DNA of 64,000 nt from Dyadobacter sp. 676 (GTDB taxonomy: Bacteria; Bacteroidota; Bacteroidia; Cytophagales; Spirosomataceae), in the NCBI RefSeq assembly GCF_040448675.1, contig NZ_CP159289.1, forward strand, positions 2,976,001 through 3,040,000, given 5' to 3'. Below are positions 10,771 through 53,690 of this stretch, in pieces. A model generated the notes under the pieces. The model saw only the letters and a list, made by a program, of their open reading frames with translations, did not search any database and was not told the DNA's origin. How positions within the stretch are numbered: the first letter of the stretch is position 1; every line of letters starts with the position of its first letter. A program made the translations under genes and the position numbers.

Positions 10771-11010
10771 GTCAAGTGTAGTCGGAAGTAGTCAGGTATA
10801 GTCAATTGTAGTCAGGTATTGTTATTAATTAATTATATCAACACTTGGCAATTCCGGACCATACTTGACAATACCTGGCTATACCTGACTATCTCTGGCA
10901 ACTCCTGACCACCTCCGACAATTCCCGACCATACCCGACTACCCCTGACAACACCTGACTACCTCCGACAATTCCCGACCATACTTGACAATCCCTGACA
11001 ACGCCCGACC
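10771..11010. repeat. Decanucleotide inverted array 1
   Basis: The left arm (10771-10830) has five clear units on a strict period of 10 (for example GTCAAGTGTA, GTCAGGTATA, GTCAGGTATT) and a degenerate sixth. An AT-rich centre (TTATTAATTAATTATATCA) follows. The right arm (10841-11010) has 17 units in exact 10-base register with consensus ATACCTGACH, the reverse complement of the left units. The array fills the convergent gap: it begins 3 bases after the M28 stop and ends 15 bases before the pbpC stop. It lacks spacers, so it is not a CRISPR. Confidence 0.9.
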
Positions 11011-11024
11011 AGGATCAACCCGCC

Positions 11025-13325
11025 CTACATGCGTTTGACGACAATCCAAACATCCGAATTCCGGCCTTTGTCGTCGCTGCACGACACTTTTACACTGCCA
11101 AGCGGCGGGCTTAGAAAAACGCTTTCCTGCGGCGGCGATTTTTGGTATAACTTATCATTAACATACCAATACACTTCCTGAACATCATTCGCGGCCTGAC
11201 ATGCGAGCTGGATTTGCTGCGGCTCATCTTTGCGAATGTAATATTCGCTTCCTTCGTGGGGACTAACGATCAATGGTGCGCCTTCGTGGAAAACCCTTTC
11301 GCATTGCGGATTATGGGGAGGGATTTTCTGGTAGGGCAGTTTTTGCAATTCATAGAAAGCAATCAGCTCCGGCGCGAGATTGGGGTAAGCCTTTTTTTCA
11401 AATCCTTTTTCAGGAAGGCAATAGGTACAATATGACATCTTTCCGACCGCATCGGTAAAAACCCAGCGCATATGCCGGCATTTCCGGTAGGCCGAAACAC
11501 CTAAAATATACTGATCCGGCACCTGATGGTCGCAGAAATCGGACGGGATGTCGCCGCTCACCGGACAAACGTTGCGGAGCGAAATGTTGGCCGGCGATTT
11601 ATACCAGCCTTTCGGTGAATTGTAATCCAGCGTATTGAAGATCGAAAACAGCAGCGGCGTGGCCGTATTGGCGCCGCTTAGCTCGGGCACGCCTTCGCCC
11701 GAAAAATTACCTACCCATACACCCACCGTGTACCGGCGGTTGTAACCGATGCTCCATGCATCCCGCTTGCCATAGGAGGTCCCGGTTTTCCAGGCGATCC
11801 GGGGCAAATGGAAGGTATTGGCAAAGTTCGTCGGCAAATCCGGCCTTGTAATCTGGGTGAGGATGCCTGTGGTGAGGAAAGTCGCTTCTTCGGAAAGGAT
11901 CGGATTTCCCTTTTTATCTAAAATATCGCCGTCCAAAAACCGAAGATTCCGTAGCTTTCCTACGTTGGCAAACGCAGCAAAAAGTCGCGTAAGCTCTTCC
12001 AGCGTGACCCCACAGCCGCCCAGAATCATCGAAAGACCGAGGTCCCTGGCTTGCTTGTCAACTGTCTTAAAACCGGCTTTACGAAGTTTGGCAATCAAAG
12101 CGGGTGTGCCGATATCTTTCAAAACTTTCACCGCCGGAATATTCAGCGAATTGGCCAATGCGAATTCGGTGGTTACCGCCCCGTTGAAATGCCTGTCAAA
12201 ATTTTCAGGTTCATAGCCGTTAAAATTACCCGGGACATCGTTCAATACTGATTTCGGTGTGATGATACCCGCGTCGAATGCGATAGCATATAATAATGGT
12301 TTCAAGGTGCTTCCCGGCGAACGCACCGCCCGCACGCCGTCGACCTGGCCGCCGTCGAAAGGATTGTCGAAATCCGCGGAACCGACGTAAGCCTCCACTT
12401 CCATGGTTTCGTTGTTCACAACGAGTACAGCGGCGTTGTGGATATTCATGGATTGCCTCCGGTTAATATAATTTCTCACCTGCTCTTCGATCTGGCTTTG
12501 CGCTTGCAAGTTAAGATTTGTGCGGATCACGGGCGTGTCAGGATTTTGCTGCCGAAGGCGGATGGAGAGGTGCGGCGCGAGGCGAGGGCTTTGAAGGCGG
12601 CGAATTTCCAACGGCTCGTTCAGTGCATCGCGGATCACATTCTGGTCGAAAAGGCCGGCTTCTTCAAAACGTTTCAGCCAGTTGTTCCTCGCCTGGCGCA
12701 GGGCGTCGTTTCGCGTGCCCGGGCGCAGGCTTGAAGGCCGGTTAGGCACGATCGTCAATGCTGTGATTTCGGAGAGGCTCAGCAGCTGCGGCGCCTTGCC
12801 GAAATAAAACAACGAGGCGGCCTTTATGCCTTCGATGTTTCCTCCATAGGGAACCAGGTTTAGATAAAATTGGAGGATTTCGTCTTTGGAATAATGCATT
12901 TCCAGTTGAAACGCATGCCACATTTCCACTACCTTATTTAAATAAGTCCGCGGACGCGGGTCCATCAGGCGCACCACCTGCATGGTGATCGTGGATGCGC
13001 CAGAAGTTCTTCTGCCCGAGAATGCATTCCTGGCCGCCGCACGCACCACCGCAAACGGGTTCACGCCTGGATGATAGTAGAAATACTGATCTTCTTTATA
13101 AATCAACGTTTTACGGAGCAACGGCGTGATTTCGTTCACATTGGAATACAGCCGCCATTTATCTTCCTTACTCAAAAAAGCATGAATGACGCGGCCTTTC
13201 CGATCGGTAATCTGCGTCGCATAATGGATATCCGGATTGAACGGAAACGCAAAGTCGAGCGCTATGAAAACGGTGATGAGGCAGACCAATGCCAACAACG
13301 CTTTTCTAACCCTGCTATGCTTCAT
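11025..13325 (-). CDS. pbpC: Penicillin-binding protein 1C
   Basis: A 766-residue bifunctional peptidoglycan synthase anchored by one N-terminal membrane helix (about residues 8-25). The glycosyltransferase domain has E78 in YKEDQYFYYHPGVNP and the ASTITMQVVRL motif. The transpeptidase domain has S339-T-L-K342, S393-L-N395 and K513-T-G515. The C-terminal region after about residue 670 is the small BiPBP_C beta domain typical of PBP1C. In many bacteria pbpC neighbours an alpha-2-macroglobulin gene; none is present here. The gene is divergent from glpK and convergent with the M28 gene across repeat array 1. Confidence 0.94.
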   Translation of the reverse strand: MKHSRVRKALLALVCLITVFIALDFAFPFNPDIHYATQITDRKGRVIHAFLSKEDKWRLYSNVNEITPLLRKTLIYKEDQYFYYHPGVNPFAVVRAAARNAFSGRRTSGASTITMQVVRLMDPRPRTYLNKVVEMWHAFQLEMHYSKDEILQFYLNLVPYGGNIEGIKAASLFYFGKAPQLLSLSEITALTIVPNRPSSLRPGTRNDALRQARNNWLKRFEEAGLFDQNVIRDALNEPLEIRRLQSPRLAPHLSIRLRQQNPDTPVIRTNLNLQAQSQIEEQVRNYINRRQSMNIHNAAVLVVNNETMEVEAYVGSADFDNPFDGGQVDGVRAVRSPGSTLKPLLYAIAFDAGIITPKSVLNDVPGNFNGYEPENFDRHFNGAVTTEFALANSLNIPAVKVLKDIGTPALIAKLRKAGFKTVDKQARDLGLSMILGGCGVTLEELTRLFAAFANVGKLRNLRFLDGDILDKKGNPILSEEATFLTTGILTQITRPDLPTNFANTFHLPRIAWKTGTSYGKRDAWSIGYNRRYTVGVWVGNFSGEGVPELSGANTATPLLFSIFNTLDYNSPKGWYKSPANISLRNVCPVSGDIPSDFCDHQVPDQYILGVSAYRKCRHMRWVFTDAVGKMSYCTYCLPEKGFEKKAYPNLAPELIAFYELQKLPYQKIPPHNPQCERVFHEGAPLIVSPHEGSEYYIRKDEPQQIQLACQAANDVQEVYWYVNDKLYQKSPPQESVFLSPPLGSVKVSCSDDKGRNSDVWIVVKRM

Positions 13326-13489
13326 GAGAGGATTTCCTGAAATTACTTAGTGTATCCGTAAATATAGGCAACGCCGTCGTGCCGTTTTCATGTGTTCCGT
13401 TCAATAAAATCGCGGCTGTATTTGTGCCGCTCGGTTAATTTTCCCTATTTACTTGCTTTACTACAAATAAAATCAATCATAATACCATT

Positions 13490-14989
13490 ATGTCCAAATA
13501 CATTGCCGCCATCGACCAGGGAACCACCAGCACACGCTGCATACTTTTCAACAAACAAGGGAATATCGTTTCGGTAGGACAAAAGGAGCACGAACAGATT
13601 TACCCACGTCCGGGTTGGGTCGAGCATAATCCCACGGAAATATGGAAAAACACCCTTGAAGTGATCGCTCTGGCGCGTATTAATGTATCGGCACACGCGT
13701 CGGACATCGCGGCGCTGGGTATTACCAACCAGCGTGAAACGACGGTCGTCTGGAACAAACGGACCGGCAAGCCCTATTACAATGCATTGGTCTGGCAAGA
13801 CACCCGCACCACCGACCTTGTCGCGAAATATGAAAAGGAAGGCGGGCTCAACCAGTTCCGGGATATTACCGGCCTGCCTGTTTCGACCTATTTCAGTGGT
13901 TTGAAACTAAAATGGTTGCTGGAAAATGTCGCGGGCATCCGCGAGGACGCCGAGAAAGGTGAGGCGATTTTCGGGAATATCGACACTTTCCTCATCTGGC
14001 ACCTTACCGGCGGCACGCACGGCGGCATTCACGTCACCGACGTAACCAACGCAAGCCGTACACAACTTATGAACCTCCGTACGCTGCAATGGGACAAGTC
14101 CATGCTCGCGGCATACAATATCCCCGAAACGATGCTGCCGGCCATAAAAAGCAGCAGCGAAATATATGGATACGCCACCCACGAAGTGCTTCCGGGTGTG
14201 CCTGTGGCCGGCGACCTGGGCGATCAGCACGCCGCATTGGTAGGGCAAACCTGCTTCGAACCCGGAATGGCCAAGAATACCTATGGCACCGGCTGCTTTC
14301 TGGTCATGAATACGGGTAACGAACTGAAAACCTCCGAAAACGGCCTGCTAACCACCATTTCCTACAAATTCGGCGACCAGCCGGTGCAATACGCTCTGGA
14401 AGGAAGCGTGGCCGTCACGGGTGCGCTTGTGCAATGGCTGCGCGACAACCTGGGCCTGATCCGGAACAGCAGCGACATAGAACCGCTTGCCCGGACCGTC
14501 GAAGACAACGGCGGCGCCTATTTCGTACCTGCATTTTCCGGCTTGTATGCACCCTACTGGCGCAACGACGCGCGCGGCGTCATAGCCGGCCTGACGCGCT
14601 ATGTGACCAAAGGGCATATTGCCCGCGCGGTACTGGAAGCGACTGCTTATCAGACCGTCGACGTAGTCCGCGCGATGGAGCAGGACTCCGCCATTCGGCT
14701 CTCCAGTCTTCGAGTGGACGGCGGTATGGTGCATAACCAGCTGCTGATGCAATTTCAATCCGATATTCTCAACACGCAGGTTGTGTCCCCGGCTGTTGCC
14801 GAAACTACCGCATTGGGAGCCGCCTACGCCGCCGGATTGGCCGTGGGATATTGGCCGAGCACCGAGGATTTGAAGAAAAACTGGGCGGTAGCGCATACCT
14901 GGAACCCGAATATGGCCGAAGAAAAGCGCAATGCCTATTACAAAGGCTGGAAGAAGGCGGTTACGAAGTCGTATGACTGGATTGATTAG
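13490..14989 (+). CDS. glpK: Glycerol kinase
   Basis: A 499-residue FGGY kinase that makes glycerol-3-phosphate. It opens with [16 protein letters not shown] (phosphate loop) and contains [34 protein letters not shown] and the C-terminal signature region [21 protein letters not shown]. The length equals that of the family. No glpF or glpD is adjacent; the secreted GDPD at 5.3-6.1 kb is the only functionally related gene in view. Its 3' end runs directly into repeat array 2. Confidence 0.97.
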
Positions 14990-15000
14990 TGGCGTGTTTT

Positions 15001-15280
15001 GTCGGGAATGGTCAGGCATGGTCATTTGTAGTCAAGTATTGTCAAGTATAGTCAGGGATTGACAGGTGTGGTCATTTGTTGTCAAGTATTGTCATTAATA
15101 GTAGGTGTGGTTGGGAATTGAAAACAAAATTTTTCCTTTCTCCGCTACAAATGACCATACGTGACTACTCCCGACCATATCTGACCACACTTGGTTAACA
15201 GTGACCATACCTGACAACAAATGACTACTCCTGTCAATCCCTGACTATACTTGACTACAAATGACCATGCCTGACAACCG
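15001..15280. repeat. Decanucleotide inverted array 2, long stem
   Basis: Twelve left-arm units (15001-15120) and thirteen right-arm units (15151-15280) in 10-base register flank an A/T-rich centre. The 28 bases at 15011-15038 pair perfectly with 15248-15275. The next 18 bases at 15049-15066 pair perfectly with 15230-15247. The only interruption is one unpaired 10-base unit on the left (15039-15048), so the arms differ by one whole repeat unit. It starts 12 bases after the glpK stop; on the plus strand a run of six T residues (15293-15298) follows, so it could double as a terminator. The remaining 15299-15381 leader of the exonuclease gene shows nothing recognisable. Confidence 0.92.
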
Positions 15281-15381
15281 CCGGACTAACGCTTTTTTAT
15301 AATCTGTATAAACAAGCCCATTCCTTGCGCTATCCCACCGTTCACCTTAACTTCGCGGTGCCAAATCAACCTTAGTAACCC

Positions 15382-16191
15382 ATGCATACCCTCCATCTCA
15401 AAAAGCCCCTTGCTTTTTTTGATCTTGAGACAACTGGAGTCAACATCGTCCGCGACCGCATTGTAGAGATTTCCGTTGTGAAAGCATTGGTGAACGGCGA
15501 AACCGAAATCCGCACGCGGCGTATTAATCCTGAAATGCCTATCCCGCTCGAAAGCAGCCTGATACACGGCATTTATGACGAAGACGTCAAAGACGCTCCC
15601 ACATTCAAAAGCATTGCAAAAAACCTGGCGGCCTTCCTCGAAGGCTGCGATCTGGCTGGTTTCAACAGCAACCGCTTCGACATTCCGATGCTTGTCGAAG
15701 AATTCCTGCGCGTGGGTGTGGATTTCGATATCAAGAACCGCCGGATGGTCGATGTGCAGCGCATTTACCACATGATGGAGCCTCGCAACCTCGCAGCGGC
15801 CTACAAATATTATTGCGGCAAAACGCTCGACAACGCCCACAGCGCCGAGGCCGATACCATTGCCACATTTGAAATTTTGCAAGGACAAATCGAACGCTAT
15901 CAAGGTGTTACGATAGTCGATTCGCATGGCAACGTGACCGAGCCGATCAAAAACGACATCGCCGTACTGCACGAACTGACCGCGTCGAAAATCGTAGACT
16001 TCGCGGGCCGGATGGTGTATAACGACAAGGGCGAGGAAGTTTTCAATTTTGGCAAGCACAATGGCAAACGCGTAGCCGACATCCTTAAAAACGAACCGTC
16101 GTTCTTCGACTGGATGATGAAAGGAGAGTTCCCGCTCGACACTAAACGGAAATTGACGGAGATTAAATTGAGGGGATTAACCCAACGCTGA
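15382..16191 (+). CDS. DnaQ-like DEDDh 3'-5' exonuclease
   Basis: A 269-residue exonuclease of the DnaQ/RNase T type. The catalytic set is D14 and E16 in FFDLETTG, D100 in FNSNRFDIPML, and H153 and D158 in HSAEADT, giving the DEDDh order. Residues about 215-269 (FNFGKHNGKRVADILKNEP, FFDWMMKGEFP) form the small C-terminal module that often follows this nuclease in Bacteroidota. It may act in proofreading or in trimming DNA or RNA; it is separate from DNA polymerase III alpha. It is transcribed alone, because a clear promoter for nuoK follows. Confidence 0.88.
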   Translation: MHTLHLKKPLAFFDLETTGVNIVRDRIVEISVVKALVNGETEIRTRRINPEMPIPLESSLIHGIYDEDVKDAPTFKSIAKNLAAFLEGCDLAGFNSNRFDIPMLVEEFLRVGVDFDIKNRRMVDVQRIYHMMEPRNLAAAYKYYCGKTLDNAHSAEADTIATFEILQGQIERYQGVTIVDSHGNVTEPIKNDIAVLHELTASKIVDFAGRMVYNDKGEEVFNFGKHNGKRVADILKNEPSFFDWMMKGEFPLDTKRKLTEIKLRGLTQR

Positions 16192-16208
16192 CATAATCTC
16201 GGCTCAGG

Positions 16209-16239
16209 TTTGAGTAAGTAGTAATTATGTCTATTTTTG
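16209..16239 (+). promoter_or_regulatory. Full Bacteroidota promoter of nuoKLMN
   Basis: TTTG at 16209-16212, a 19-base spacer and TATTTTTG at 16232-16239 match the TTTG-N19-TAnnTTTG consensus at every fixed position. Initiation would fall near 16245, about 50 bases before nuoK. A second TATTTTTG lies at 16249-16256 without a partner. Confidence 0.75.
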
Positions 16240-16293
16240 CCTGAAATCTATTTTTGACTATTTTAACCGGATATCCAATAAGGTAAACCTGCT

Positions 16294-16647
16294 ATGATCC
16301 CAAACCCCACCATGCCAGAGGTTAACATACCAGCGGTTATTCAAAATATCCCACTTCAAAGCTATTTAATTCTCAGCACCTTACTATTTGTAATCGGCAT
16401 TATCGGTGTGCTTACGCGCAGGAATGCGATTATCATTTTCATGTCGATTGAATTGATGCTGAATGCCGCAAACCTGCTGCTGATCGCATTCTCTTCATAC
16501 CGGTCCGATCCTTCCGCACAGGTTTTCGTATTCTTTATTATGGCCGTAGCAGCCGCCGAAGTAGCCGTGGGGCTCGCCATTATCGTAATGATTTACCGCA
16601 ACACCAGAAATACGGATATCGGGTTCCTCAACAAGCTGAAATGGTAA
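16294..16647 (+). CDS. nuoK: NADH-quinone oxidoreductase subunit K
   Basis: A 117-residue three-helix membrane subunit of complex I, related to the MrpC antiporter. The helix with the conserved glutamate is FMSIELMLNAANLLLIAF, and the third helix FFIMAVAAAEVAVGLAIIV carries the second conserved glutamate; both belong to the proton-conducting membrane arm. The ATG at 16312 (MPEVNIP) is an alternative start six codons in. It is the first gene of a four-gene group directly behind a good promoter, with nuoL 54 bases downstream. Confidence 0.94.
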   Translation: MIPNPTMPEVNIPAVIQNIPLQSYLILSTLLFVIGIIGVLTRRNAIIIFMSIELMLNAANLLLIAFSSYRSDPSAQVFVFFIMAVAAAEVAVGLAIIVMIYRNTRNTDIGFLNKLKW

Positions 16648-16701
16648 GATTTCGGCGCACTAACCGGTCAAAACCAAGAGATTAAAGATTAAAAAATAGA
16701 C

Positions 16702-18621
16702 ATGTCTGCATCATTACTCATCCTGATTCCGCTGTTGCCGCTCGCAGGCTTTCTGATCAACGGAATCGGATTTCCCAACATCCCCAAAGGCGCAGTAGGC
16801 ATTATCGGAACTTTGGCGGTGGTGGCCAGCTTCGCGCTGTCGGTCATGACGTTCAATGCGTTCGTTACCTCGGGCAGTCAGCCGTTTATAGTACCGCTCT
16901 TCGACTGGATCACCGTCGGCGACCTTAATATCCCGTTCTCCTTCCAGGTCGACCAGCTTTCGTTGCTGATGCTGATGATCATCACCGGCGTAGGTTCGCT
17001 GATCCACATTTATTCGATCGGCTACATGCATCACGATTCAGGTTTTGGTAAATTTTTCGCTTATCTGAACCTGTTTTTGTTTTTCATGCTCCTGCTGGTG
17101 CTTGGCTCGAACTACGTAATCATGTTCATCGGCTGGGAAGGTGTGGGACTTTGCTCTTACCTACTCATCGGCTTCTGGAACAAGAACACCAGCTACAACA
17201 ATGCAGCCCGTAAAGCATTCATCATGAACCGTGTAGGAGACCTCGGTTTCCTGCTGGGTATCTTCACGATCATTGCTACGTTCGGTTCGGTCGAATACTC
17301 GGAGGTTTTCAGCAAAGCGGCCGCCGGTTTCCAGGTAGGCGATCCGGTGATAATTACCATTACGCTGTTTCTTTTTGTGGGTGCGATGGGTAAATCGGCA
17401 CAGATACCGCTGTATACCTGGCTCCCCGACGCGATGGCCGGCCCGACGCCCGTTTCGGCCCTGATCCACGCCGCTACGATGGTTACCGCGGGCATTTACA
17501 TGGTGATCCGATCCAACGTGCTCTATTCATTGGCGCCTTCAACCCTCGAAATCGTGGGCATTATCGGTGGCGCTACCGCATTGTTCGCCGCTTCGATCGG
17601 CCTTTTACAAAACGACATCAAGAAAGTACTGGCATATTCCACAGTTAGTCAGCTGGGTTATATGTTTATGGCCCTGGGCGTGATGGCCTATTCGGCATCC
17701 ATGTTCCATGTAATCACCCATGCATTCTTCAAGGCATTGCTCTTCCTCGGCGCCGGTAGCGTGATCCACGCCATGTCCGACGAGCAGGATATCCGGTCGA
17801 TGGGTGGTTTGAGAAAAAAATTGCCTGTTACGTTCATTACATTCTTTTTCGGAACCTGGGCAATTTCAGGTATCCCGCCACTTGCAGGTTTCTTCTCGAA
17901 AGATGAAATCCTTGCCCACGTTTTTGAACACAACAAAATCCTGTGGGTAATCGGTGTGCTGGGCTCGATCATGACTTCCTTCTATATGTTCCGCCTGTTG
18001 TTCCTGACATTCTTCGGGACCTTCCGCGGCACGCACGAGCAGGAGCACCATTTGCACGAATCACCTGCTTCGATGACCATTCCGTTGATCATCCTCGCCA
18101 TTCTTTCTGCCCTGGGTGGTTTCATCGGTGTTCCTGAGGCATTGCACGGGTCGCACCAGTTGGCCCAGTTCATGAGCCCGTTGTATGATCTGGCCAAAAC
18201 TGCAAATCCGGCTGCGTTCGAGCATACTTCCCTTTCGCATTCGGAAGAATATATGCTGATGGCGATTTCAGTTGCTGCTGCATTGATTTCCGCCATCGCC
18301 GCTTATGTGATGTACGTACAAAAAGGTGCGGTACCAGCCCCCGATTCAGAAGAAAAATCAGGCTTGCAGCGTGTGGTTTATAACAAGTATTATGTCGACG
18401 AACTATACGATGCGGTATTTGTAAAACCAATCAAAACGCTTTCCAACATCCTGTACAGCTTCGGCGAGATCACGATCGATTTGATCATCGAGGCGTTTAC
18501 CGGGCTGGTCAACCTGATAGCGAAGCTATTGAGAAAAACACAAACCGGCTCCACCGGCGAATATGTGTTCGCGATGGTGATAGGTATCGTGTTGATATTA
18601 TTCTGGAAGCTGTTACTCTGA
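16702..18621 (+). CDS. nuoL: NADH-quinone oxidoreductase subunit L
   Basis: A 639-residue antiporter-like subunit with about 15-16 membrane helices, one of three proton channels of complex I. Typical segments are MFIGWEGVGLCSYLLIGFW (with the key glutamate), YTWLPDAMAGPTPVSALIHAATMVTAGIY and STVSQLGYMFMALG. The C-terminus carries the long lateral helix and a final anchor (VFAMVIGIVLILFWKLLL). It lies between nuoK and nuoM with short gaps. Confidence 0.97.
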   Translation: MSASLLILIPLLPLAGFLINGIGFPNIPKGAVGIIGTLAVVASFALSVMTFNAFVTSGSQPFIVPLFDWITVGDLNIPFSFQVDQLSLLMLMIITGVGSLIHIYSIGYMHHDSGFGKFFAYLNLFLFFMLLLVLGSNYVIMFIGWEGVGLCSYLLIGFWNKNTSYNNAARKAFIMNRVGDLGFLLGIFTIIATFGSVEYSEVFSKAAAGFQVGDPVIITITLFLFVGAMGKSAQIPLYTWLPDAMAGPTPVSALIHAATMVTAGIYMVIRSNVLYSLAPSTLEIVGIIGGATALFAASIGLLQNDIKKVLAYSTVSQLGYMFMALGVMAYSASMFHVITHAFFKALLFLGAGSVIHAMSDEQDIRSMGGLRKKLPVTFITFFFGTWAISGIPPLAGFFSKDEILAHVFEHNKILWVIGVLGSIMTSFYMFRLLFLTFFGTFRGTHEQEHHLHESPASMTIPLIILAILSALGGFIGVPEALHGSHQLAQFMSPLYDLAKTANPAAFEHTSLSHSEEYMLMAISVAAALISAIAAYVMYVQKGAVPAPDSEEKSGLQRVVYNKYYVDELYDAVFVKPIKTLSNILYSFGEITIDLIIEAFTGLVNLIAKLLRKTQTGSTGEYVFAMVIGIVLILFWKLLL

Positions 18622-18675
18622 TCCGATCATTCATCAATCCGTTCAATACTAGTTTCGGACCGTCGACTTGAAAAT

Positions 18676-44371: not shown

Positions 44372-44421
44372 AAGTAGCCGCAGCTCGTTATATTTACTTT
44401 TTTAATTCTTAACCAACAATA

Positions 44422-44805: not shown

Positions 44806-44820
44806 GCTATTGAAAATATC

Positions 44821-44857
44821 AAAAAAAACCTGCGCCCAATACGGACGCAGGTTTTTT
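44821..44857 (+). terminator. Intrinsic terminator after the RidA-family gene
   Basis: AAAAACCTGCG (ending 44833) pairs with CGCAGGTTTTT (from 44845), loop of 11 bases, ending in T7. It is 15 bases after the stop codon. Confidence 0.88.
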
Positions 44858-44956
44858 TATCGCCATTTTGCGCGGTTTCCAACCTTTTGGCGCGGATTTT
44901 GCTCTTTGTGGAGGTGTTGTCTGATTTGGAACCCTAAACAAAAGACATCTCTTGAC

Positions 44957-45256
44957 ATGAAAAATGGAATTACTCTTATAATCGCCTCAGTTTTACTGCT
45001 GCTTTGTGTAATGCAAAAAGAGGCGAGATACGGAACGGCTCAGCATGAAAGTGTAGAAAAAATGTACAATGCTTCACCAGTCGGCACGGCGCAGGGCAAG
45101 AGCTCCGGATCACAATATGCCGACCAGCTATTAACCGACTCTCAATCATTCGAATTCGCATCGGCGGACACTACCTTGAAAGCGGAACCAACCGCCCGGC
45201 TGGCCAATCAACGGTTGTTGCACATTTCGGCCAACAGTAAAATGCTAAATTACTGA
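44957..45256 (+). CDS. Small secreted or membrane-anchored protein, unknown
   Basis: A 99-residue protein beginning MKNGITLIIASVLLLLCVMQ, an N-terminal hydrophobic segment that may be a signal anchor or signal peptide. A longer frame is open from 44810, but it runs across the terminator, so the ATG at 44957 is preferred. The mature part is small, polar and Ser/Ala/Gln-rich, with no motif I recognise. It ends inside a 14-bp hairpin that separates it from the convergent SNF2 gene. Function unknown. Confidence 0.55.
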   Translation: MKNGITLIIASVLLLLCVMQKEARYGTAQHESVEKMYNASPVGTAQGKSSGSQYADQLLTDSQSFEFASADTTLKAEPTARLANQRLLHISANSKMLNY

Positions 45257-45283
45257 ACCAACGAACGGATTCAGTAATTTAGC
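45244..45283. terminator. Bidirectional hairpin between the small gene and SNF2
   Basis: GCTAAATTACTGAA (45244-45257) pairs perfectly with TTCAGTAATTTAGC (45270-45283) around 12 bases. The left arm contains the stop codon of the small gene. The location between convergent genes suggests a terminator, although the T tracts are short. Confidence 0.6.
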
Positions 45284-45296
45284 CGACATCGGTGGT

Positions 45297-48200
45297 TTAA
45301 CTGAAAAGTCCCATAATATCCTCCTGGCTCAATTTCTTGATAAAGCCTGACTCCCCTCCTACGAGGTCTTCCGCCAAATCCTGCTTCCGTTGCTGCAAAA
45401 GCAGAATTTTCTCTTCGATCGTATCCTTGCAAATCATTTTATAGGCAAATACCTTGCGCGTCTGCCCGATGCGGTGCGTCCGGTCGATCGCCTGGCGTTC
45501 CACGGCAGGGTTCCACCACGGATCGACGAGGTAAACGTAGTCCGCCTCCGTGAGGTTGAGCCCGACACCACCAGCCTTGAGACTCATCAGGAACACCCGG
45601 CAGGTATCATCGTTCTGGAATCGGTTTACACGGCCGGCGCGGTCGACGGTCTGGCCATCGAGGTATTCGTAAGGGATATTCATTTTCTCCAGATGCTTGC
45701 GGATCAGGTCCAGCATTCCCAGAAACTGACTGAATATCAATATCTTGTGATTAGATGCGTTTTCCTCGATTTCACGGGTGATCTCTTCCAGCTTGGCCGA
45801 TTCGCTGCCGAAATCTTCATCTCCCGCCAAAATAGAAGGCGAGTCGCATATCTGGCGCAGTTTCAGCAATGCTTCAAGAATAAGGAAACTGCTCTTATTA
45901 AGCCCTTCGGTAGCGAGCTTTTCGGCGATTTCCTGGCGGTAACGCTCGCGGAATGTATCGTAAACCTTCCGCTGCTTGTTACCCATTTCGCAGAACAGGA
46001 TGGTCTCGGTTTTGTCGGGCAAATCGGTCGCTACCTCCTCCTTCGTGCGTTTCAGCATAAACGGGTAAACCAGCTTACGCAGTTCCGCGGCCTTTTCCTT
46101 ATCCTGGTATTTATCGATCGGTGTCGCGTATTCGGTTCGGAAGAAGTCGGCGTGGCCGAGCATTCCGGGATTCAGGAACTCGAATTGCGAATAGAGGTCA
46201 AATGTATTGTTCTCCACCGGCGTGCCGGTCATCGTGAGGCGGTTGCGCGCGCGGAGCAGGCGCGATGCCTTGGATGTAAGCGAATCCGGATTCTTGATCG
46301 CCTGCGCCTCGTCGAGGATGATGTAATTGAAATCAAACCCGCGCAATAGCTCTACGTCGCTGCGCATGGTGCCGTAGGTTGTCAGGATGATGTCGTATTC
46401 ACGGAAAAATTCAATGTCTTTCCGTCGCGCCATACCCCTGTGCACGTATAGTTTGAGATCGGGTGTGAATTTGGCGGCTTCCGCCTGCCAGTTGAAAATC
46501 AGGGTTGTAGGAACTACGACAAGGTTCGTATATTCCGGGTTCAGGTTTTTCTGGTTTTGCAGGAACGTCAGCATTTGCAGGGTCTTACCCAAACCCATAT
46601 CGTCCGCCAGACAGCCGCCCCATTGGAACTCGTCCAGAAAATGCAGCCATTTATAACCCTCTTCCTGGTATTGCCGGAGCGTCGCCCGGATGTTTTGCGG
46701 AAGCGGTACTGAGGGAATTTGCTTAAAATTGAGCAGCTTTTGTTTTTTCTCCCAAAGCTCCCGGTAAACTTCCTCGTTATCGATCTCGGAAACCAGGTCG
46801 TCGATCAGCGAGAAGTGGATTTTAGACAAATGGATCTGATCGTCATGAACGCGTCCAAACTGCATGACCGGTTCCAGTTTTGCGATCCATTCGTCCGGCA
46901 GAACGCCCAGCGAGCCGTCCTGCAACTGAATATAATTCTGCTTTTTGAGCAATGCTTTTTTCGCATCCGCCAATGTTACCGTCTGATCCCCAAAAGTGAT
47001 CTCGATCCGCATATCGAACCAATCGATACCGGAGGAAGTATGCACTTTGACCACCCCGCGATTGGGATTGAAGCGCATCTTTTTCAGGTCTTTGAACCCG
47101 AAAATTTCATAATGCTTCTTTTTGGCGGCATCCACGAAACTGAACAGCCAGCCGTTCTTCATCACCTGGTCAAACGGGAGGTAAAAAAATGGCTGCCCGG
47201 TTTGGTGTTCAAAGCTTGGGTGCAGTGCCTTCATCCATTCCCAAACCGCATTCTCGGCCTGAACATCCCGTTCCAGCATGGTGATCTGGTTATCTCCGAA
47301 GCTGGTCCGGGTCCGGCGCTGATCGTGCAGGAATTCCAGCTCCCCGGTTTTTCCATCCTCTTCCAAATAGACGTAGGAAGGCACTATTAACAGGTTCGCC
47401 TCGTCTTCTTTCAGGTAAAACTTCGGCTTCTGAAATACCAGCGACGATGCCTGTATTTCGTGGCGGGTCTGAAAAATCACATCGAACTTTTCCGAAACCG
47501 GAATGATCCAGTTTTTCAGAAAATCGTCGCCAAAATCTTTTTTAACCCGTATTTTAAATCCGTTCTGGCTCAGGTAGGCGACCATTTCCGCTTCGCTGAT
47601 ACCCGCCCAGCGGAATAATGTCTTCTCGTTATAAAGTCCAAGCCAGAAACTGTCGAGCGCAACCACTTTCTGCAACTCCACCGGCGTTCCCGGCTTGATT
47701 TCTACATAGGGGTTCAGCGTGATAAACTCCTTGTCTTCGGTAAGAACAAAAAACAGTTTTACCGGTTCGCGGTGCAATTCGAGCTGTGTAAGCTGATGAT
47801 TGCTGGTCACATAGTCGCCGTCGGCCAGGAACAGGCGGTCGCCGTCCAGGTCATTGAAAACGCGGGTAAGTTGCTTGCCCACATAATTCCGGGCCTCGTA
47901 ACGTTGCTCGGCTTCGACGTCGTCGAAATGCAGATAGGCATTGTATGCCCAACCTTGCTTGCGGATGAATTTTTGCAAACCCTCTTCCCAATGCTTCGCC
48001 ATACGCACAAGGCGCGCGTCCGACTCGCTGAGTACCGGAATTTCATCCGCATTATAATAGTGGCTCGAACCGCCGGCAATGTTACGGATATTGGTAACCT
48101 TCTCGGATTTGGAACTGAACTTGACCGAAAAAACACCGAACCCGATGTCAAGCAGGTGATTTTTTCCTTTTGGCCAGAAAACAAAGATGGAAACACGGTC

Positions 48201-49082
48201 CTCGTCGTCCTGCCCGTTGTCCGTCAACGTCACGGCAAACGTCGACTCCTGGGCAGGCAATATGCGCTCGCGCAACGACTGCCAATCCTGATAAGCGCCC
48301 ACCTTCTGAATCGCCGGATCGAGCTTGATCAAATGCAGCCCACCGTCTTCATCGAGCCTGAATTCGAATTTATCTTTGTAAGGATCTTCCAGCGAATAAC
48401 CATATTCGGCGAGCAGGTTGCTCTTCTCGGCTGTCAGGTCGCGCATTACCTCGAACGCCTTCTCGCCCAGCTCCTCTCGGAGTTTCAGCAACGCGGCGAG
48501 CTTGTGCTCGCAAAGCGGCACCCAAAGTTTCTGGTTACAGGTACAGGATGTCTGGATTTGCCGCGTGCCCTTAACACGCCGGAACGTGGTTATATATTCC
48601 TGTCCTTTGTCCGTCACCCGGCATTCCGCCTCGCCTTCCCTGGCCGAAACAATTTCCACCGGGCCTACATTCTCGCGGTTCTGCCAGGTTTCGTCGAGTA
48701 CCATGACGCGTAATTGCGCCTCACGTATCTCCTGAAGTTCGATCGTCGTGCCGGCCATATCATGGACAACCTGTTTGATCGTCGGCATTTTGTCGAGAAT
48801 GTATAAAATAGCTGCCACCCGGTGCTTGCATAGCCCGGCTTTGTCCGGACAGGAACATTCGGTGGTTATCTGCGGTGTGAGGAAATCGCGGATGAAAATC
48901 TGGTAATACTGAACCGAATAGTCGCTTTTGACCTTGAATTCAGCATTACCGGGGCCATTATAATCGAGTTTGGAAACTTTTAAGCCGCCACTGCTATAAA
49001 TGGAACGCCCTCTTGATAATACATCCCGCTCCGCCCGTCTCAGTAAGAAGTTGGATAGTTTCTCCTTCTTTTCGTTTTCCAT
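45297..49082 (-). CDS. SNF2-family DEAD/DEAH helicase with two SWIM fingers
   Basis: A 1261-residue Swi2/Snf2 ATPase. The motor occupies the C-terminal 480 residues: ADDMGLGKTLQ (Walker A, about residue 825), LDEAQAIKNP (Walker B/DEAQ), and DPWWNPAVERQAIDRTHRIGQTRKV (motif VI). The N-terminus has two SWIM zinc fingers, C76-x-C78-x6-C85-x-H87 and C180-x-C182-x8-C191-x-H193. Most bacterial SNF2 proteins have at most one such finger. A long middle region of about 600 residues separates them from the motor. Proteins of this type remodel protein-DNA or RNA polymerase complexes; the substrate here is unknown. A TAnnTTTG box lies 25 bases upstream. Confidence 0.92.
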   Translation of the reverse strand: MENEKKEKLSNFLLRRAERDVLSRGRSIYSSGGLKVSKLDYNGPGNAEFKVKSDYSVQYYQIFIRDFLTPQITTECSCPDKAGLCKHRVAAILYILDKMPTIKQVVHDMAGTTIELQEIREAQLRVMVLDETWQNRENVGPVEIVSAREGEAECRVTDKGQEYITTFRRVKGTRQIQTSCTCNQKLWVPLCEHKLAALLKLREELGEKAFEVMRDLTAEKSNLLAEYGYSLEDPYKDKFEFRLDEDGGLHLIKLDPAIQKVGAYQDWQSLRERILPAQESTFAVTLTDNGQDDEDRVSIFVFWPKGKNHLLDIGFGVFSVKFSSKSEKVTNIRNIAGGSSHYYNADEIPVLSESDARLVRMAKHWEEGLQKFIRKQGWAYNAYLHFDDVEAEQRYEARNYVGKQLTRVFNDLDGDRLFLADGDYVTSNHQLTQLELHREPVKLFFVLTEDKEFITLNPYVEIKPGTPVELQKVVALDSFWLGLYNEKTLFRWAGISEAEMVAYLSQNGFKIRVKKDFGDDFLKNWIIPVSEKFDVIFQTRHEIQASSLVFQKPKFYLKEDEANLLIVPSYVYLEEDGKTGELEFLHDQRRTRTSFGDNQITMLERDVQAENAVWEWMKALHPSFEHQTGQPFFYLPFDQVMKNGWLFSFVDAAKKKHYEIFGFKDLKKMRFNPNRGVVKVHTSSGIDWFDMRIEITFGDQTVTLADAKKALLKKQNYIQLQDGSLGVLPDEWIAKLEPVMQFGRVHDDQIHLSKIHFSLIDDLVSEIDNEEVYRELWEKKQKLLNFKQIPSVPLPQNIRATLRQYQEEGYKWLHFLDEFQWGGCLADDMGLGKTLQMLTFLQNQKNLNPEYTNLVVVPTTLIFNWQAEAAKFTPDLKLYVHRGMARRKDIEFFREYDIILTTYGTMRSDVELLRGFDFNYIILDEAQAIKNPDSLTSKASRLLRARNRLTMTGTPVENNTFDLYSQFEFLNPGMLGHADFFRTEYATPIDKYQDKEKAAELRKLVYPFMLKRTKEEVATDLPDKTETILFCEMGNKQRKVYDTFRERYRQEIAEKLATEGLNKSSFLILEALLKLRQICDSPSILAGDEDFGSESAKLEEITREIEENASNHKILIFSQFLGMLDLIRKHLEKMNIPYEYLDGQTVDRAGRVNRFQNDDTCRVFLMSLKAGGVGLNLTEADYVYLVDPWWNPAVERQAIDRTHRIGQTRKVFAYKMICKDTIEEKILLLQQRKQDLAEDLVGGESGFIKKLSQEDIMGLFS

Positions 49083-49106
49083 TTACCCTGCTGCCTATTA
49101 AAAACG

Positions 49107-49114
49107 CAAAAGTA
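49107..49114 (-). promoter_or_regulatory. Bacteroidota -7 box for the SNF2 gene
   Basis: On the minus strand TACTTTTG matches TAnnTTTG, 25 bases before the start codon. TTTC replaces TTTG about 20 bases further upstream. Confidence 0.5.
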
Positions 49115-49171
49115 CGGTATGTTTCTGTCTTATAGAAACGAATGAAGAAGTATTGGCTCGCACTTATGCGA

Positions 49172-49615
49172 TTATGAGCGCAGATAGGGTTGGTCGATCA
49201 AGCCGATATGTCCCGAACGCTGCGCCCCGTTGCAGAATGCGGCGATCTGCGGACCGACATTGGGGTACAAATGTGTACTGGAAAGCGCCGAAACGGGTAA
49301 CCATACGATTTCGAGCGCCGTAGTATGCGCCGGGTCGAGCACGGGAGTGCCTTTTGTTATATTTGCGTTAAATACCATGTGCAGGGTTTCCTTCCGCACT
49401 TCCTGCCAGATTACCTCACCACAGGATACCATTTCGCCAACCGTAACTTCCACACCCAGCTCTTCCATCAGCTCGCGCGCCAGGGCGGCGGACAACGTTT
49501 CGCCAGGATCGGGATTACCGCCAGGCAATGCGAAAACCTCCTTTTCTCCATAACGGTAACGCAGCGTGAGAATCTTGTCGTTGTCGAGGATGATGGCGGA
49601 TGGACGGACGTTCAT
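49172..49615 (-). CDS. NUDIX hydrolase
   Basis: A 147-residue NUDIX pyrophosphohydrolase. The Nudix box G33-x5-E39-x7-R47-E48-L49-x-E51-E52-x-G54 is intact (GGNPDPGETLSAALARELMEELGV in outline). Such enzymes hydrolyse nucleoside diphosphates linked to another moiety; the substrate is not predictable here. The gene lies downstream of gmhA on the same strand, but repeat array 3 separates them. Confidence 0.92.
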   Translation of the reverse strand: MNVRPSAIILDNDKILTLRYRYGEKEVFALPGGNPDPGETLSAALARELMEELGVEVTVGEMVSCGEVIWQEVRKETLHMVFNANITKGTPVLDPAHTTALEIVWLPVSALSSTHLYPNVGPQIAAFCNGAQRSGHIGLIDQPYLRS

Positions 49616-49653
49616 GGTGGTACGGATGTGCAGGTTGGTAGCGTTGATTTTTA

Positions 49654-49845
49654 GTCAAGTATTGTCAGGAATAGTCATTTGTGATCAGGAAATGAATGAT
49701 TATTCCTCAATAAACAAACTTCCTCCGAAAAATAACAACACCTGACCACAAATGACCAACCCATGACTATACCTGACCATCCCTTACTATACTTGACCAT
49801 ACTTGACAACACCTGACCACACACCACAACACCTGACCACGACAA
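49654..49845. repeat. Decanucleotide inverted array 3
   Basis: The left arm has about four units (49654-49693: GTCAAGTATT, GTCAGGAATA, GTCATTTGTG, ATCAGGAAAT). After an A/T-rich centre the right arm has about ten units with TGAC cores (49741-49840), spaced 10 bases with one 11-base step. The array lies in the 250-base gap between gmhA and NUDIX and starts about 20 bases after the gmhA stop (minus strand). A 64-codon open frame across it is a shadow. Confidence 0.88.
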
Positions 49846-49865
49846 TGTCGCTGAACAGCACCATG

Positions 49866-50450
49866 TCAATCGCGTAGCACCATTTTTTCGATCAGCAGCA
49901 TGAAAATGTGGATGACTTTAATGTGGATTTCCTGAATGCGGTCGGCGTAACCGAAATGCGGCACGCGGATCTCGACATCGGCCACGCCGGCCAGTTTACC
50001 ACCGTCCTTGCCCGACATAATGATAATCTTCATCCCCCTGGCCTTCGCAGCTTCTGCGGCGCGGATGATATTGGCGGAATTTCCGCTCGTACTCAATCCC
50101 AGCAGCACATCGCCCGGCCGGCCTAATGCCTCGATATACCTCGAAAACACATATTCATACCCAAAATCGTTGCTGACGCAGCTCAGATGGCTTACATCGG
50201 AGATTGCGATGGCGGGTAATGCGCGCCGGTTGTCGCGATAGCGGCCGGTCAGTTCTTCGGCGAAATGCATGGCGTCGCAATGCGAACCACCGTTACCGCA
50301 CGACAGGATTTTGCCGTTATGAATAATCGCGTCGGCCATCAGTCCTGCCGCTTTTTCGATCTTTTCAACCTGCTCAGGATCGTTCAGGAAATTGTCGAGC
50401 ACGGTCTGTGCTTCTTTCAGTTCCTGGCTGATAATGTTTTGGTAATTCAT
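49866..50450 (-). CDS. gmhA: SIS-domain phosphoheptose isomerase
   Basis: A 194-residue SIS-fold isomerase resembling GmhA, which converts sedoheptulose-7-phosphate to D-glycero-D-manno-heptose-7-phosphate for LPS core or S-layer/capsule heptose. SIS motifs are [21 protein letters not shown] and [20 protein letters not shown], and the C-terminal histidine-rich helix [19 protein letters not shown] is typical of the family. It lies 17 bases behind mnmD on the same strand. The 3' end meets repeat array 3. Confidence 0.87.
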
Positions 50451-50467
50451 GTTTGTATATAAATAAG

Positions 50468-51118
50468 TCAGAGCCTGATGGCTTTCAATACGTGTGCTTT
50501 CCGGCCGGGGCCTTTGTGCCGCTCCACTTCAAACCCCGCCGCGGCGAGCGCTCTTTTAACGATGCCTTTGGACGAATATGTTACTAATACGCCTCCTGGT
50601 CGGGTTTGGGCCGCTATTTGGGTAAAAATTTCTTCTGTCCAGAGTTCGGGCTGGGCCTGCGGGTCGAAAGCGTCATAGAAAACGACGTCAAAAAACCGGT
50701 CCTGAGTGAATTGCTGTAAGGTGGTCTTTTCTTTGCGCAGCACAAAAAAAGGAGAGATAGCCGCTTCCGTGCCCCACGGTGCATGGTGCAGCTCCATAAA
50801 ACCCTTTTCCCCCGTCGCTTCCTCATAGTTGAGTTGCGAGGCTTCCAGCAGTGAAACGGGATAAGCCTCCACGGAAGTGTAGAAAACCTGCTTTTGAAGA
50901 TTATCGGCGAGTTTCCAGGCTAAAAACGCATTCAGTCCTGTGCCGAAACCCATTTCAAAAACAGAAACCGGCCCATGTTCGAGGACCGGCCTTAAACCAA
51001 GGTTGATATAAATGTGCTCCGATTCGTTCAAAGCACCTTGCAGGGAATGGTATTGCTGATTGAACTGCGCGCTGAACAATGAGTGCGAGCCGTCCTCGGT
51101 AATAATAAAGCGTTCCAA
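50468..51118 (-). CDS. mnmD: tRNA 5-methylaminomethyl-2-thiouridine methyltransferase (MnmD type)
   Basis: A 216-residue SAM-dependent methyltransferase, the MnmC N-terminal domain as a separate protein. It makes the last methylation of the wobble uridine in certain tRNAs. The SAM motif is [15 protein letters not shown], followed by the signature [15 protein letters not shown] and the C-terminal [26 protein letters not shown]. No MnmC oxidase domain is attached. It lies between the aspartyl protease (28-base gap) and gmhA (17-base gap) in one likely operon. Confidence 0.9.
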
Positions 51119-51146
51119 TGGCCGGATTTTGGTTTGGCCAAAAGTA

Positions 51147-52416
51147 CTAAATCATTCTGCGCAGTGTGATCTGCGTAAAGAAAATATCGCCTTTACGTTT
51201 CACGAGCAGATCGATATTCTTGCCATCGCCCCGTTGCATGAGCTTGTATATGTCGCTCACATTGAGTTCCGCGGCCGAATGGTCGTCGATGAAAAGCAGC
51301 TGGTCGCCCTCCATGAGCCCGGCCCGTGCCGCGGGCGAATCCGCTACAATATGATTGACGATGTAGGAACGCAGGTCAACACCCTCCGCCCGTATCTCCA
51401 TGCCGCTCATATCGTGTTCGAATTTCTCGCGCAGACGGCTTTTGATTGGTTTCAACACCATATATCGTTCGCCGTAATTGAATGTGACCTTGAAACGGCG
51501 CAACAACTCGCAGCCGATATTACCTTGGCGTTCGGCGCCTGCCTTGATTTTGGACCCGAATGCGATACTGTCGGGAAACGAAGCTACGACGTTGTTCAGC
51601 TCAAAACGTCCCAACCGCATTTTATCCACACGTCCCAGGTTTCCGTTGATCACGCCATTGAGGCCACGGCCCAGCTGCGCGCGGATCACTTTTTCGGGCA
51701 ACCGGAAGGTTTCTTTCGGGGTATTGTTCAACAGCAAAGCATGGCCGGCACCGGTGTCGATCAGCACACGGATAGGATGTTCACGACCGTCGGCGAAAAG
51801 CGTTACGGCGTCGGTAAATGGCTTGGTATCTTCGATAATCAGGGGATGTTTGTCGCCCTTCCTGGCTTTATAGCGGTATTTGTCCGGCCGCATCAGCAAG
51901 ATCTCCTTTTTGGCAAAATCGATGGTTACCACGAAGTTGTTAAAAATCTCGTAGCCGAAAATACCGTGAACCGGCACGCCCACGTACTCCGAAAGCCGCA
52001 GGAAATCCTGTTCGAGAATAACGATGTTCTGGTGATTCGCTTTGAGGCGCCCCATTTGAAACCGGTTGTCGATCGCGACATGCGCAGAAATGGACGTGCC
52101 CTCGCCTGCACCGGTAAGATTAACCTTGCGGGTTAAACGCAGCTTGTCGGGTTTGAGAACGTTCGGGTCGGTGATGATAATCGAGCTGACGCCCGTGTCG
52201 AGGATAAAGCGCAGTGAATCATTGTCGTTGATCTTCGCATAGAGCAGGATCAGATTGGAATGCAGCTCGAACGGGATGCGTGCTGTTTTGTAATTTTTAT
52301 CTAAAAAATACCCATACTTTTCCTCTGATACGGGGGGGAACGTCGCTGGAATGGCCGAATGTTAGGGAATGAGTAAAAAGTATGATCGCTGCTATAAACC
52401 ACTTAGACGTTTTCAT
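51147..52416 (-). pseudogene. Exported aspartyl protease with PDZ domain, frameshifted in a G7 run
   Basis: Read from ATG at 52416 the gene would encode about 422 residues. It has a signal peptide (MKTSKWFIAAIILFTHSLTFG) and a first retropepsin-like half with FILDTGVSSIIIT. A second half carries RVLIDTGAGHALLL, and a C-terminal PDZ domain carries LRSYIVNHIVADSPAARAGL. Two DTG halves plus PDZ are the layout of a Bacteroidota aspartyl-protease family. One extra G in the run 52332-52338 (seven instead of six) shifts the frame after about 26 residues; the first frame then stops after VWVFFR. Translation could only resume at 52055 without the first DTG motif. It may be a sequence error or a phase-variable site. 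Confidence 0.85.
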
Positions 52417-52669
52417 CGTGGCCTCCTTTCTTTAAATGCTATGTATCAAGTTCCGCATGCAACATTATAAACACTCTGATTATAAATGACTTAACTATTA
52501 ATATTTATATCCTTCGGTGTACGCTAAGTATCGGATTCAGCCCAATCGGTTAATCAAGTAAAATTAAACGATTTTGCATTAATAAAACACAAAAAAATCC
52601 CGGTATGTGCAAATTTTCCGACATTTTTTTGATCGCATTTATATAATCATGCAAATGAGGAAAATATGG

Positions 52670-52677
52670 TACTTTTG
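52670..52677 (+). promoter_or_regulatory. Bacteroidota -7 box for tpiA
   Basis: TACTTTTG matches TAnnTTTG, 40 bases before the preferred tpiA ATG. The 300-base divergent gap (52417-52716) otherwise shows only A/T-rich sequence. The box lies downstream of the ATG at 52666, which argues against that longer start. Confidence 0.5.
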
Positions 52678-52716
52678 TTGCGTAAAAAAGACTTTTTCCA
52701 CAATAAAAATTTTCTC

Positions 52717-53478
52717 ATGCGAAAAAAAATTGTTGCCGGCAATTGGAAGATGAACAAGGTTCTGGATGAAGCGGTTGCGCTTACCTCCGAGCTCGTAAAT
52801 ATGGCCAAAGACGAGGTCCGTAATGATGCCAAAATCATCCTTTGCCCTCCTGCGATTTATCTCACTACCATTAAAAAATATATCGGGACAGAGCCCAACT
52901 TCGCATTGGCAGCTCAAAATTGCTCGGATAAAGTGTCAGGCGCGTTCACGGGGGAGATCTCGGCGCAAATGTTGCAATCGATCGGCGTGGAATACGTGCT
53001 GATAGGCCACAGCGAACGTCGCCAGTATTTCAACGAAACCAATGCGTTGCTGGCCGAAAAAGTGAACACAGCGCTTTCTTTCGGCGTGTCGCCTATTTTC
53101 TGCTGCGGCGAATCGCTTGAACAGCGTCAGAACGAAGACTATATCGGTTTTGTAAAGAACCAGCTGACCGAGAGCCTTTTCCACCTTTCGGAAGAGCAAT
53201 TGAAATCGGTCGTGATCGCTTATGAGCCGATCTGGGCAATCGGAACCGGCCTGACGGCGTCCGCAGAGCAAGCGCAGGAAATGCACGGCGCATTGCGCGC
53301 GCACATCGCTTCAAAATACGGCGCGGAAGTAGCGGACGAGATTTCGATCCTTTACGGTGGAAGCGTAACCGCCGCCAGCGCACCCGAGCTGTTCGCGGCA
53401 CCGGATATCGACGGCGGCCTGGTTGGTGGCGCTTCTCTGAAATCGAGGGAGTTTACAAATATTATTAAGGCGCGGTAA
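52717..53478 (+). CDS. tpiA: Triosephosphate isomerase
   Basis: A 253-residue TIM-barrel enzyme interconverting dihydroxyacetone phosphate and glyceraldehyde-3-phosphate in glycolysis. Catalytic regions are K11 in GNWKMN, the histidine in VLIGHSERRQYF and the glutamate in AYEPIWAIGTG (loop-6 region); LYGGSVTAAS binds phosphate. The frame is open from 52666, but only the ATG at 52717 gives the usual MRKKIVAGNWKMN start. Its 3' end meets repeat array 4. Confidence 0.97.
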   Translation: MRKKIVAGNWKMNKVLDEAVALTSELVNMAKDEVRNDAKIILCPPAIYLTTIKKYIGTEPNFALAAQNCSDKVSGAFTGEISAQMLQSIGVEYVLIGHSERRQYFNETNALLAEKVNTALSFGVSPIFCCGESLEQRQNEDYIGFVKNQLTESLFHLSEEQLKSVVIAYEPIWAIGTGLTASAEQAQEMHGALRAHIASKYGAEVADEISILYGGSVTAASAPELFAAPDIDGGLVGGASLKSREFTNIIKAR

Positions 53479-53500
53479 AGCGGCTGGCGATGGCCGTGTG

Positions 53501-53690
53501 GTCAAGTGTGGTCATTGGTTGTCAAGAGTAGTCAGGTGTAGTCAAAGGTTGTCGAAGCATGGTCAAAAGTGGCCGGATGTCGTACATATAGCAACAATAC
53601 TTAACTATCGACCATTCCTGACAATACATGACCACATCTGACTATACCTGACAATACATGACCACACCTGACAATACGCCTGGCGTCGAC
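53501..53690. repeat. Decanucleotide inverted array 4
   Basis: Six left-arm units (53501-53560: GTCAAGTGTG, GTCATTGGTT, GTCAAGAGTA, GTCAGGTGTA, GTCAAAGGTT, GTCGAAGCAT) are followed by two shifted units. After an A/T-rich centre, eight or nine right-arm units with TGAC cores lie on a 10-base period (53601-53690). The array fills the convergent gap between tpiA (stop at 53478) and the OmpA gene (stop at 53710), leaving about 20 bases on each side. Confidence 0.9.

Follow-up and report, generated by a model that had tools for sequence, protein, structure and literature searches.

What are the long inverted arrays of a ten-base word that stand at four places in a 64,000-nt stretch of the Dyadobacter sp. 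676 genome (7,284,078 bp, one contig), a stretch called the window below, and what keeps the word in being? Each array is made of tandem [AG]T[AGT]GTCA decamers set head-outward, either in two inverted arms round a short centre or in a single arm. Their grammar and position, the order of their arms, their load across the genome and their turnover could all be observed. The reading that suits these observations best, to which we give about an even chance, is a repeat like the repetitive extragenic palindromes and bacterial interspersed mosaic elements (REP/BIME) which would be kept by trans-acting recognition of [AG]T[AGT]GTCA in the DNA.

Arms were called with a hidden Markov model (HMM) of the decamer unit, which was run on the window and on 38 further stretches of the same genome picked for holding GTCA matches. 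Twenty-three of these came from places matched by a three-unit pattern (up to about 2.99 Mb), and the other 15 were picked by a pattern that already fixed the order GTCA..TGAC. In the window the model called eight arms, against none in 20 dinucleotide shuffles, and when 15 of the 39 sequences were reversed as a control, it called 0 arms as compared with 34 in the forward direction. A period scan of the window placed GTCA and TGAC far above all other tetramers at period 10. The boundaries called were 10771-11009, 15001-15275, 49654-49837 and 53501-53677, and the four arrays that an earlier, sequence-only reading of the window had described were therefore found in their places, with the same arm order, GTCA on the left and TGAC on the right, at 4 of 4 as it had said. 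The window and the 38 stretches together yielded 82 arms in 52 arrays: 29 two-armed in the order GTCA..TGAC, 22 with one detectable arm and one in the reverse order.

All four arrays have the unit consensus GTCA[GTA][GT]T[AG]T[AGT] at period 10. Conservation in interior units of the 82 arms was 99% at G1, 96% at T2, 92% at C3, 91% at A4 and 94% at T9, figures that lean high because the HMM itself favours GTCA and T9; positions 5, 7, 8 and 10 were variable and C was rare from 5 to 10. A second model, in which positions 5-10 are unweighted, was used on named Dyadobacter loci and on other Bacteroidota sets, and with this blind model T9 was present in 90% of the 888 units of the named Dyadobacter loci. 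The base preceding GTCA was A, T, G or C in the proportions.36,.33,.29 and.02 (461 interior positions). The conserved core extends beyond GTCA. Mutual information among unit positions was small, except between 5 and 6. The units had been said to diverge while holding their register, and so they do, with 68 indel steps among 6202 and GTCA-GTCA spacings that peak at 10, 20, 30, 40, 50 and 60, where a control tetramer is flat. Adjacent units have 2.94 of 6 letters in common, which equals the value for shuffled units and is not what the near-identical neighbours of a minisatellite (variable-number tandem repeat) would give. Units two to six apart have 3.2-3.4 of 6 letters alike, and 0 of 300 between-arm shuffles reach that value. 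Likeness at two to six units, with none beyond chance at one, suggests that arrays gain units in blocks of two or more.

Further copies, a point on which the sequence-only reading had staked itself, are clearly present in the genome and in its relatives. The three-unit pattern gave 152 and 156 matches in the whole 7.28 Mb (0 and 0 in the reversed control), and a four-unit pattern matched 35 of 48 Dyadobacter genomes, with counts of 0 to 610 (reversed control 0 of 48). A first survey of 59 genomes found matches in 27, all Dyadobacter (our own and 26 of 36 congeners), and in none of the 22 of other genera; its reversed control matched in one of the 59 (G038, seven times). Even close relatives differ in count, from 2 up to 610. 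A tpiA tree of 30 genomes, which holds 7 of the 13 zero-count genomes (the other six are absent from it), joins those seven array-free genomes in one clade with support 100/99, and its array-rich clade is poorly resolved. Over 37 genomes the load rose with genome size (rho 0.42, p=0.01) and had a weak positive relation to the number of GTCA-CTGAGCG hairpins, another repeat of the genus (rho 0.29, p=0.08).

Outside the genus the picture is scattered. A longer two-arm pattern run over named genomes found at least 80 loci, at least 27 of them outside Dyadobacter; the non-Dyadobacter carriers among the matches listed were Spirosoma, Fibrella, a single Flavobacterium and metagenome bins, assigned to Bacteroidota and, in two cases, to Planctomycetota, although bin names may be wrong. 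Six sets drawn from these two-arm loci (15 to 96 units each, blind model) have R8 in at least 75% of units, T9 in at least 76% in four sets, in 57% in one and in 40% in the bin KLAP56, and TT at positions 5-6 in five of the six. The KLAP56 arrays (L075, L080, L095) have G or T at position 9 and mostly C at position 10, which may reflect a changed specificity. In a sample of the phylum, four-unit matches occurred in 10 of 394 other genomes (4 of the 10 consensus-like by eye), which is near background because the reversed control matched 6 of 395. Carriage by viruses was considered and rejected, as a viral collection, from which records close to the window's genome may be left out, held just two stretches, both of other make by eye. 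On one viral contig (L330:2363-2451) there is a 10-bp array of a different make, in which GTCA and TGAC overlap within a single unit (GTCAATGACA).

Where do the arrays stand? The nearest stop codon is 2, 11, 28 and 22 bp from sites 1, 2, 3 and 4. The sequence-only placement of every array within about 25 bases of a stop thus holds at sites 1, 2 and 4, and the third, at 28 bp, cannot be described just as a 3'-end array, since a NUDIX gene starts 38 bp from its left arm. Neighbouring genes showed that two of the four lie between convergent pairs, again as described before. By flanking genes the 52 arrays comprise 13 in convergent, 35 in co-directional and 4 in divergent gaps; intergenic length predicts 6.6, 31.6 and 13.8 for these classes and the count of gene pairs 7.5, 36.8 and 7.7, and the shortage in divergent gaps has p=0.001 on the first basis. 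Between co-directional genes the median distance is 10 bp to the stop side and 62 bp to the start side (p=1.5e-6), and three further sets from Dyadobacter lean the same way (p 0.004 to 0.049). The parts of the arrays in the window, with a fifth site that matters below, are as follows.

10771-10830, site 1, left (GTCA) arm by HMM and neighbour genes: about 6 units, with a peptidase M28 gene (9695-10768, + strand) stopping 2 bp before it; the last part of the arm merges into the A/T-rich centre.
10831-11009, site 1, right (TGAC) arm by HMM: about 18 units, 15 bp off the end of a penicillin-binding protein gene (11025-13325, - strand).
15001-15119, site 2, left (GTCA) arm by HMM: about 12 units, 11 bp past the stop of an FGGY kinase gene (13490-14989, + strand).
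15120-15145, site 2, A/T-rich centre: a small hairpin predicted by folding.
15146-15275, site 2, right (TGAC) arm by HMM: about 13 units; by arm comparison several left-arm units recur here, including a shared mutant unit.
49654-49693, site 3, left (GTCA) arm by HMM: about 4 units; the NUDIX gene (49172-49615, - strand) starts 38 bp away.
49708-49723, site 3, central core: by site comparison the same 16 bases in 10 of 10 congeners, arms or no arms; possibly the promoter of the NUDIX gene.
49737-49837, site 3, right (TGAC) arm by HMM: about 10 units; a SIS-domain gene (49866-50450, - strand) has its stop 28 bp away.
53501-53571, site 4, left (GTCA) arm by HMM: about 7 units, 22 bp past the stop of tpiA (52666-53478, + strand).
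53603-53677, site 4, right (TGAC) arm by HMM: about 7.5 units; an OmpA-family gene (53710-54510, - strand) ends 32 bp away.
60200-60250, + strand, site 5: a 17-residue linker within a uvrA-like gene (58445-61324, + strand), with just two GTCA in this genome.

The covariance models of Rfam had 0 matches in the window at the gathering threshold.

Sites 1-4 were then read in ten congeners over about 80 kb of synteny. All 27 arrays of the congeners in syntenic DNA (28 if counted per stretch) fall at sites 1-4 or at site 5. Their letters are another matter: arms at orthologous places are not more alike than others (170 orthologous against 486 non-orthologous pairs, p=0.74; the pairs are not independent), and only 2 of the 170 lie above the 99th percentile. 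The pair G028-G018, 89% identical, was excluded from this test; these two genomes have units in common at some sites. Unit number varies between species, and the number at sites 1-4 follows the genome-wide load (rho 0.82, p=0.002, 11 genomes). Unit composition by species came from 27 loci, too thin a sample to tell a lineage preference from base composition. Best matches between arrays of our own genome had a median of 28, as compared with 24-25.5 in six simulations, and the top matches among the 82 arms lay inside the simulated range; no recent copying from locus to locus was therefore seen. A miniature transposon (MITE) was rejected on the same result, as the dispersed near-identical copies expected of one are not present among these arms. 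What emerges is a bacterial repeat of which the position and the spelling rule are inherited and the letters are not, and of which the load moves together across the genome.

Each site has its own history. What stands at site 1 varies among the congeners, from a 1-bp gap through a seed of 45 bp to long arms. Arms were present at site 2 in 10 of 10, though in G455 just one was detected. The arms of site 3 flank the 16-base core, which array-free relatives keep alone, so that gain or loss did not take the arms as a single block. In place of the array at site 4, five relatives bear GTCA..TGAC hairpins of the CTGAGCG type, two of them in a variant spelling (G035, G459, G454, G014 and G021; L184, L189, L190, L192 and L203), and G455 has a small, different hairpin. 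In the tpiA/ompA gap of G035 and G459, TGAC-headed tandem units of other lengths stand beside the hairpin. One exact form of the GTCA..TGAC CTGAGCG hairpin matches 34 of 48 Dyadobacter genomes. The flank past the stop at site 4 is identical over 7 bases in G011, which has the array, and G459, which has the hairpin. More distant Dyadobacter carry decamer arrays at the tpiA gap too (L194, L198, L200, L205; 17 of 30 loci read), and the site is accordingly either old or repeatedly used. Mosaics of decamers and CTGAGCG hairpins were looked for, and the two weak text matches were not convincing. At sites 1 and 2 of G028 and G018 (within L309-L316) a different palindromic repeat cluster with the core AATCGCGTAGCGATGTA lies in the array centre, as if other repeats targeted the middle of arrays.

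The fifth site lies within a gene. The HMM called a one-armed GTCA array in the uvrA-like gene, identified by its Pfam UvrA domains, of G003, G018 and G028. In G018 and G028 its GTCA words alternate between spacings of 10 and 8 bp, and in G003 the spacings are 10, 11 and 10; 10+8 and 10+11 are both multiples of three, and the reading frame is thereby kept. The word is translated alternately as GTC-A and -GT-CA, ie in two reading frames. That the same word is kept in two frames inside coding sequence argues for a cause at the level of DNA. The length of the UvrA linker follows the array load (rho 0.76, p=0.011; 10 of 11 genomes, G455 not having been located).

Could the conserved thing be an RNA? 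The arms would then form a long hairpin that ends or protects messenger RNA on both strands, as has been proposed for REP/BIME, and arrays right after stops and between convergent genes are where such an element should lie. Folding of 28 of the 29 two-armed arrays (one with a long centre was excluded) gave energies below those of dinucleotide shuffles (30 each), with z from -2.0 to -15.2 and a mean of -6.4, and an RNA role, for instance at transcript ends, is possible. As the explanation of the arrays we nevertheless think it rather unlikely. Two arms taken from one array complement each other no better than two from separate arrays do (27 arrays, p=0.73), arm lengths within an array are uncorrelated (Spearman 0.16, n=29), and 22 of the 52 arrays have one detectable arm (14 of 33 among sequences not selected by order); on these three grounds the hairpin as such is not the conserved thing. 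The reverse arm order would base-pair equally well and yet is rare, with GTCA..TGAC leading by 18 to 1 when the window is taken together with the 23 stretches that were picked without regard to order, and by 15 to 2 in 27 congener loci; a count of 21 to 0 in the ten close congeners adds little because those loci are the orthologous sites of the window arrays. Canonical terminators were not depleted at arrays, being scored in 15 of 57 gaps with arrays and 105 of 344 without (p=0.64) by a scanner that is unspecific, since 64 of 267 gene 5' gaps also scored. Judged as intrinsic terminators (hairpin plus U run), the 28 arrays fold stably and the U-run test, with the same unspecific scanner, gave no difference. 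The copy in the coding sequence of uvrA does not suit a transcript end either. Arm-to-arm covariation, tried as a proof of the hairpin, was negative save at site 2, where the two arms carry a common run of units including the mutant unit, which suggests occasional copying across the hairpin. From the REP/BIME-like transcript-end hairpin of the sequence-only reading, the 3'-end placement, the inverted, outward-tagged order and the many copies have stood, and the hairpin as the conserved feature has not.

That reading knew of no named element of this make and had left two more options open, a nucleoid element and protein sites on one face of the helix. The last of these fared better in part, as a periodic recognition site in the DNA would fit more closely than a hairpin, given a motif kept in two frames of coding sequence. 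If the sites served the host, selected one by one every 10 bp for a nucleoid or regulatory protein, the binding-site-like conservation with freer letters alongside, the positions fixed over congeners and the strict period would follow. That they are missing from the clade of seven genomes and differ so widely in load among close relatives does not, nor does a strong arm order, which is unexpected for plain double-strand sites, nor growth inside UvrA with no obvious benefit; we regard this explanation as unlikely. Much less credible still is neutral slippage, with GTCA a mere leftover of the founder unit. Block duplications are visible and unit number differs between species, but several positions are near-free while GTCA and T9 exceed 90%, adjacent units are not more alike than chance, and T9 and R8 recur in most other Bacteroidota sets although the search pattern did not ask for them. 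REP elements moved by REP-associated tyrosine transposases (RAYT) are the least probable source, and we give them next to no weight. Y1 transposase matches are present in 47 of 48 Dyadobacter genomes and the tetranucleotide tag at the outer end recalls REPs, but none of 30 Y1 loci, taken singly from each genome out of a much larger number of matches, carries a decamer arm, so that the flanking seen in GTAG REP/RAYT systems is lacking there, and several (L217, L222, L240) adjoin other palindromic repeats, unlike the decamer arrays. Nor is Y1 count correlated with array load (rho 0.09, p=0.58, 37 genomes), and no recent copy-and-paste was seen.

In the REP/BIME-like reading that we prefer, a trans-acting factor would recognise the motif in DNA with a pitch near one helical turn or, alternatively, would read the 5' GTCA tag on single-stranded DNA. 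Arrays would grow and shrink in place as blocks of at least two units are added or dropped, and would persist where extra DNA is harmless, chiefly right after stop codons and once in the flexible UvrA linker. Arrays after stops could fold as transcript-end hairpins, and a secondary effect on RNA may follow. Several results weigh against this reading. No trans factor was found: the Y1 transposases are not supported, by the two counts just given, and neither is loss of the palindrome nuclease SbcCD as a cause of high load, SbcD being above the cut-off in 48 of 48 genomes. All 28 folded arrays are stable as RNA. The shortage in divergent gaps is not significant by gene pairs (p=0.17), the stop-side lean was not seen in the 27 loci of other genera (15 tandem pairs, p=0.68), and the GTCA count of the UvrA linker follows load weakly (p=0.086). 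The choice of stretches biases the conservation figures and the intergenic expectation, and for the 15 order-selected stretches only, the arm order. The load correlations over 10-11 genomes are uncorrected for relatedness, and array-rich genomes may share ancestry. A bolder version, which we offer tentatively and hold to be doubtful, is that a DNA-level system in Dyadobacter and scattered Bacteroidota reads [AG]T[AGT]GTCA at a ten-base pitch, sets array length genome-wide and rewrites fixed sites, even in a repair gene with its frame kept. Array-rich, array-poor and array-free Dyadobacter occur side by side, which means that the maintaining factor can be sought by comparison, and the maintenance of tagged REPs without a transposase becomes testable.

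No description of such arrays was found in the open-licence literature as represented by titles and the beginnings of abstracts, and the nearest systems differ from them in make. Like the arrays, the GTAG REPs, BIMEs and RAYT systems are intergenic, high in copy and arranged in inverted pairs, as far as the portions of PMC3733652 and PMC6006769 at hand describe them; the arrays have no GTAG tag, no single stem and no linked RAYT gene that we found. The TAACTGA heptamers of Beggiatoaceae, Cyanobacteria and a few Bacteroidetes (PMC4679880, in part) are also a short tandem intergenic word with a patchy spread across phyla, but they are invariant direct repeats and in the main species mostly stand just before start codons. 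Within the genus, the GTCA..TGAC hairpins with the CTGAGCG core have the outer tetramers of the arrays and occupy the same tpiA/ompA gap in relatives; they differ in having one GC-rich stem, a conserved sequence and no period of 10.

The closest likeness is to the CGTC-tagged REPs, as the part of Di Nocera et al. 2013 (PMC3733652) available to us presents them. They too have a GTC tag at the outer end and mostly head-outward dimers, lie near the 3' ends of convergent or same-direction genes, and have no known dedicated transposase. The head-outward order holds here by the counts given above for our own genome and the congeners, and the 3'-end placement holds in Dyadobacter, the lean not being seen outside the genus. 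The CGTC REPs are single stem-loops with a stem of 8-9 bp, which opens with A-T pairs, a loop of 4-5 nt, a short tail and TGTC or CCTC as variants of the tag. The arrays are tandem decamers with no stem of their own, in arms of about 3 to 19 units, with mostly free letters beside GTCA; GTC mostly follows A, G or T, and about a third of the units fit TGTC. They share the habits of the CGTC-tagged REPs and not the defining structure, and we do not file them as members. Tagged REPs of both superfamilies together are reported in the same source to lie also within repair genes, including uvrA and uvrB, and the uvrA copy described here is an added case of that habit.

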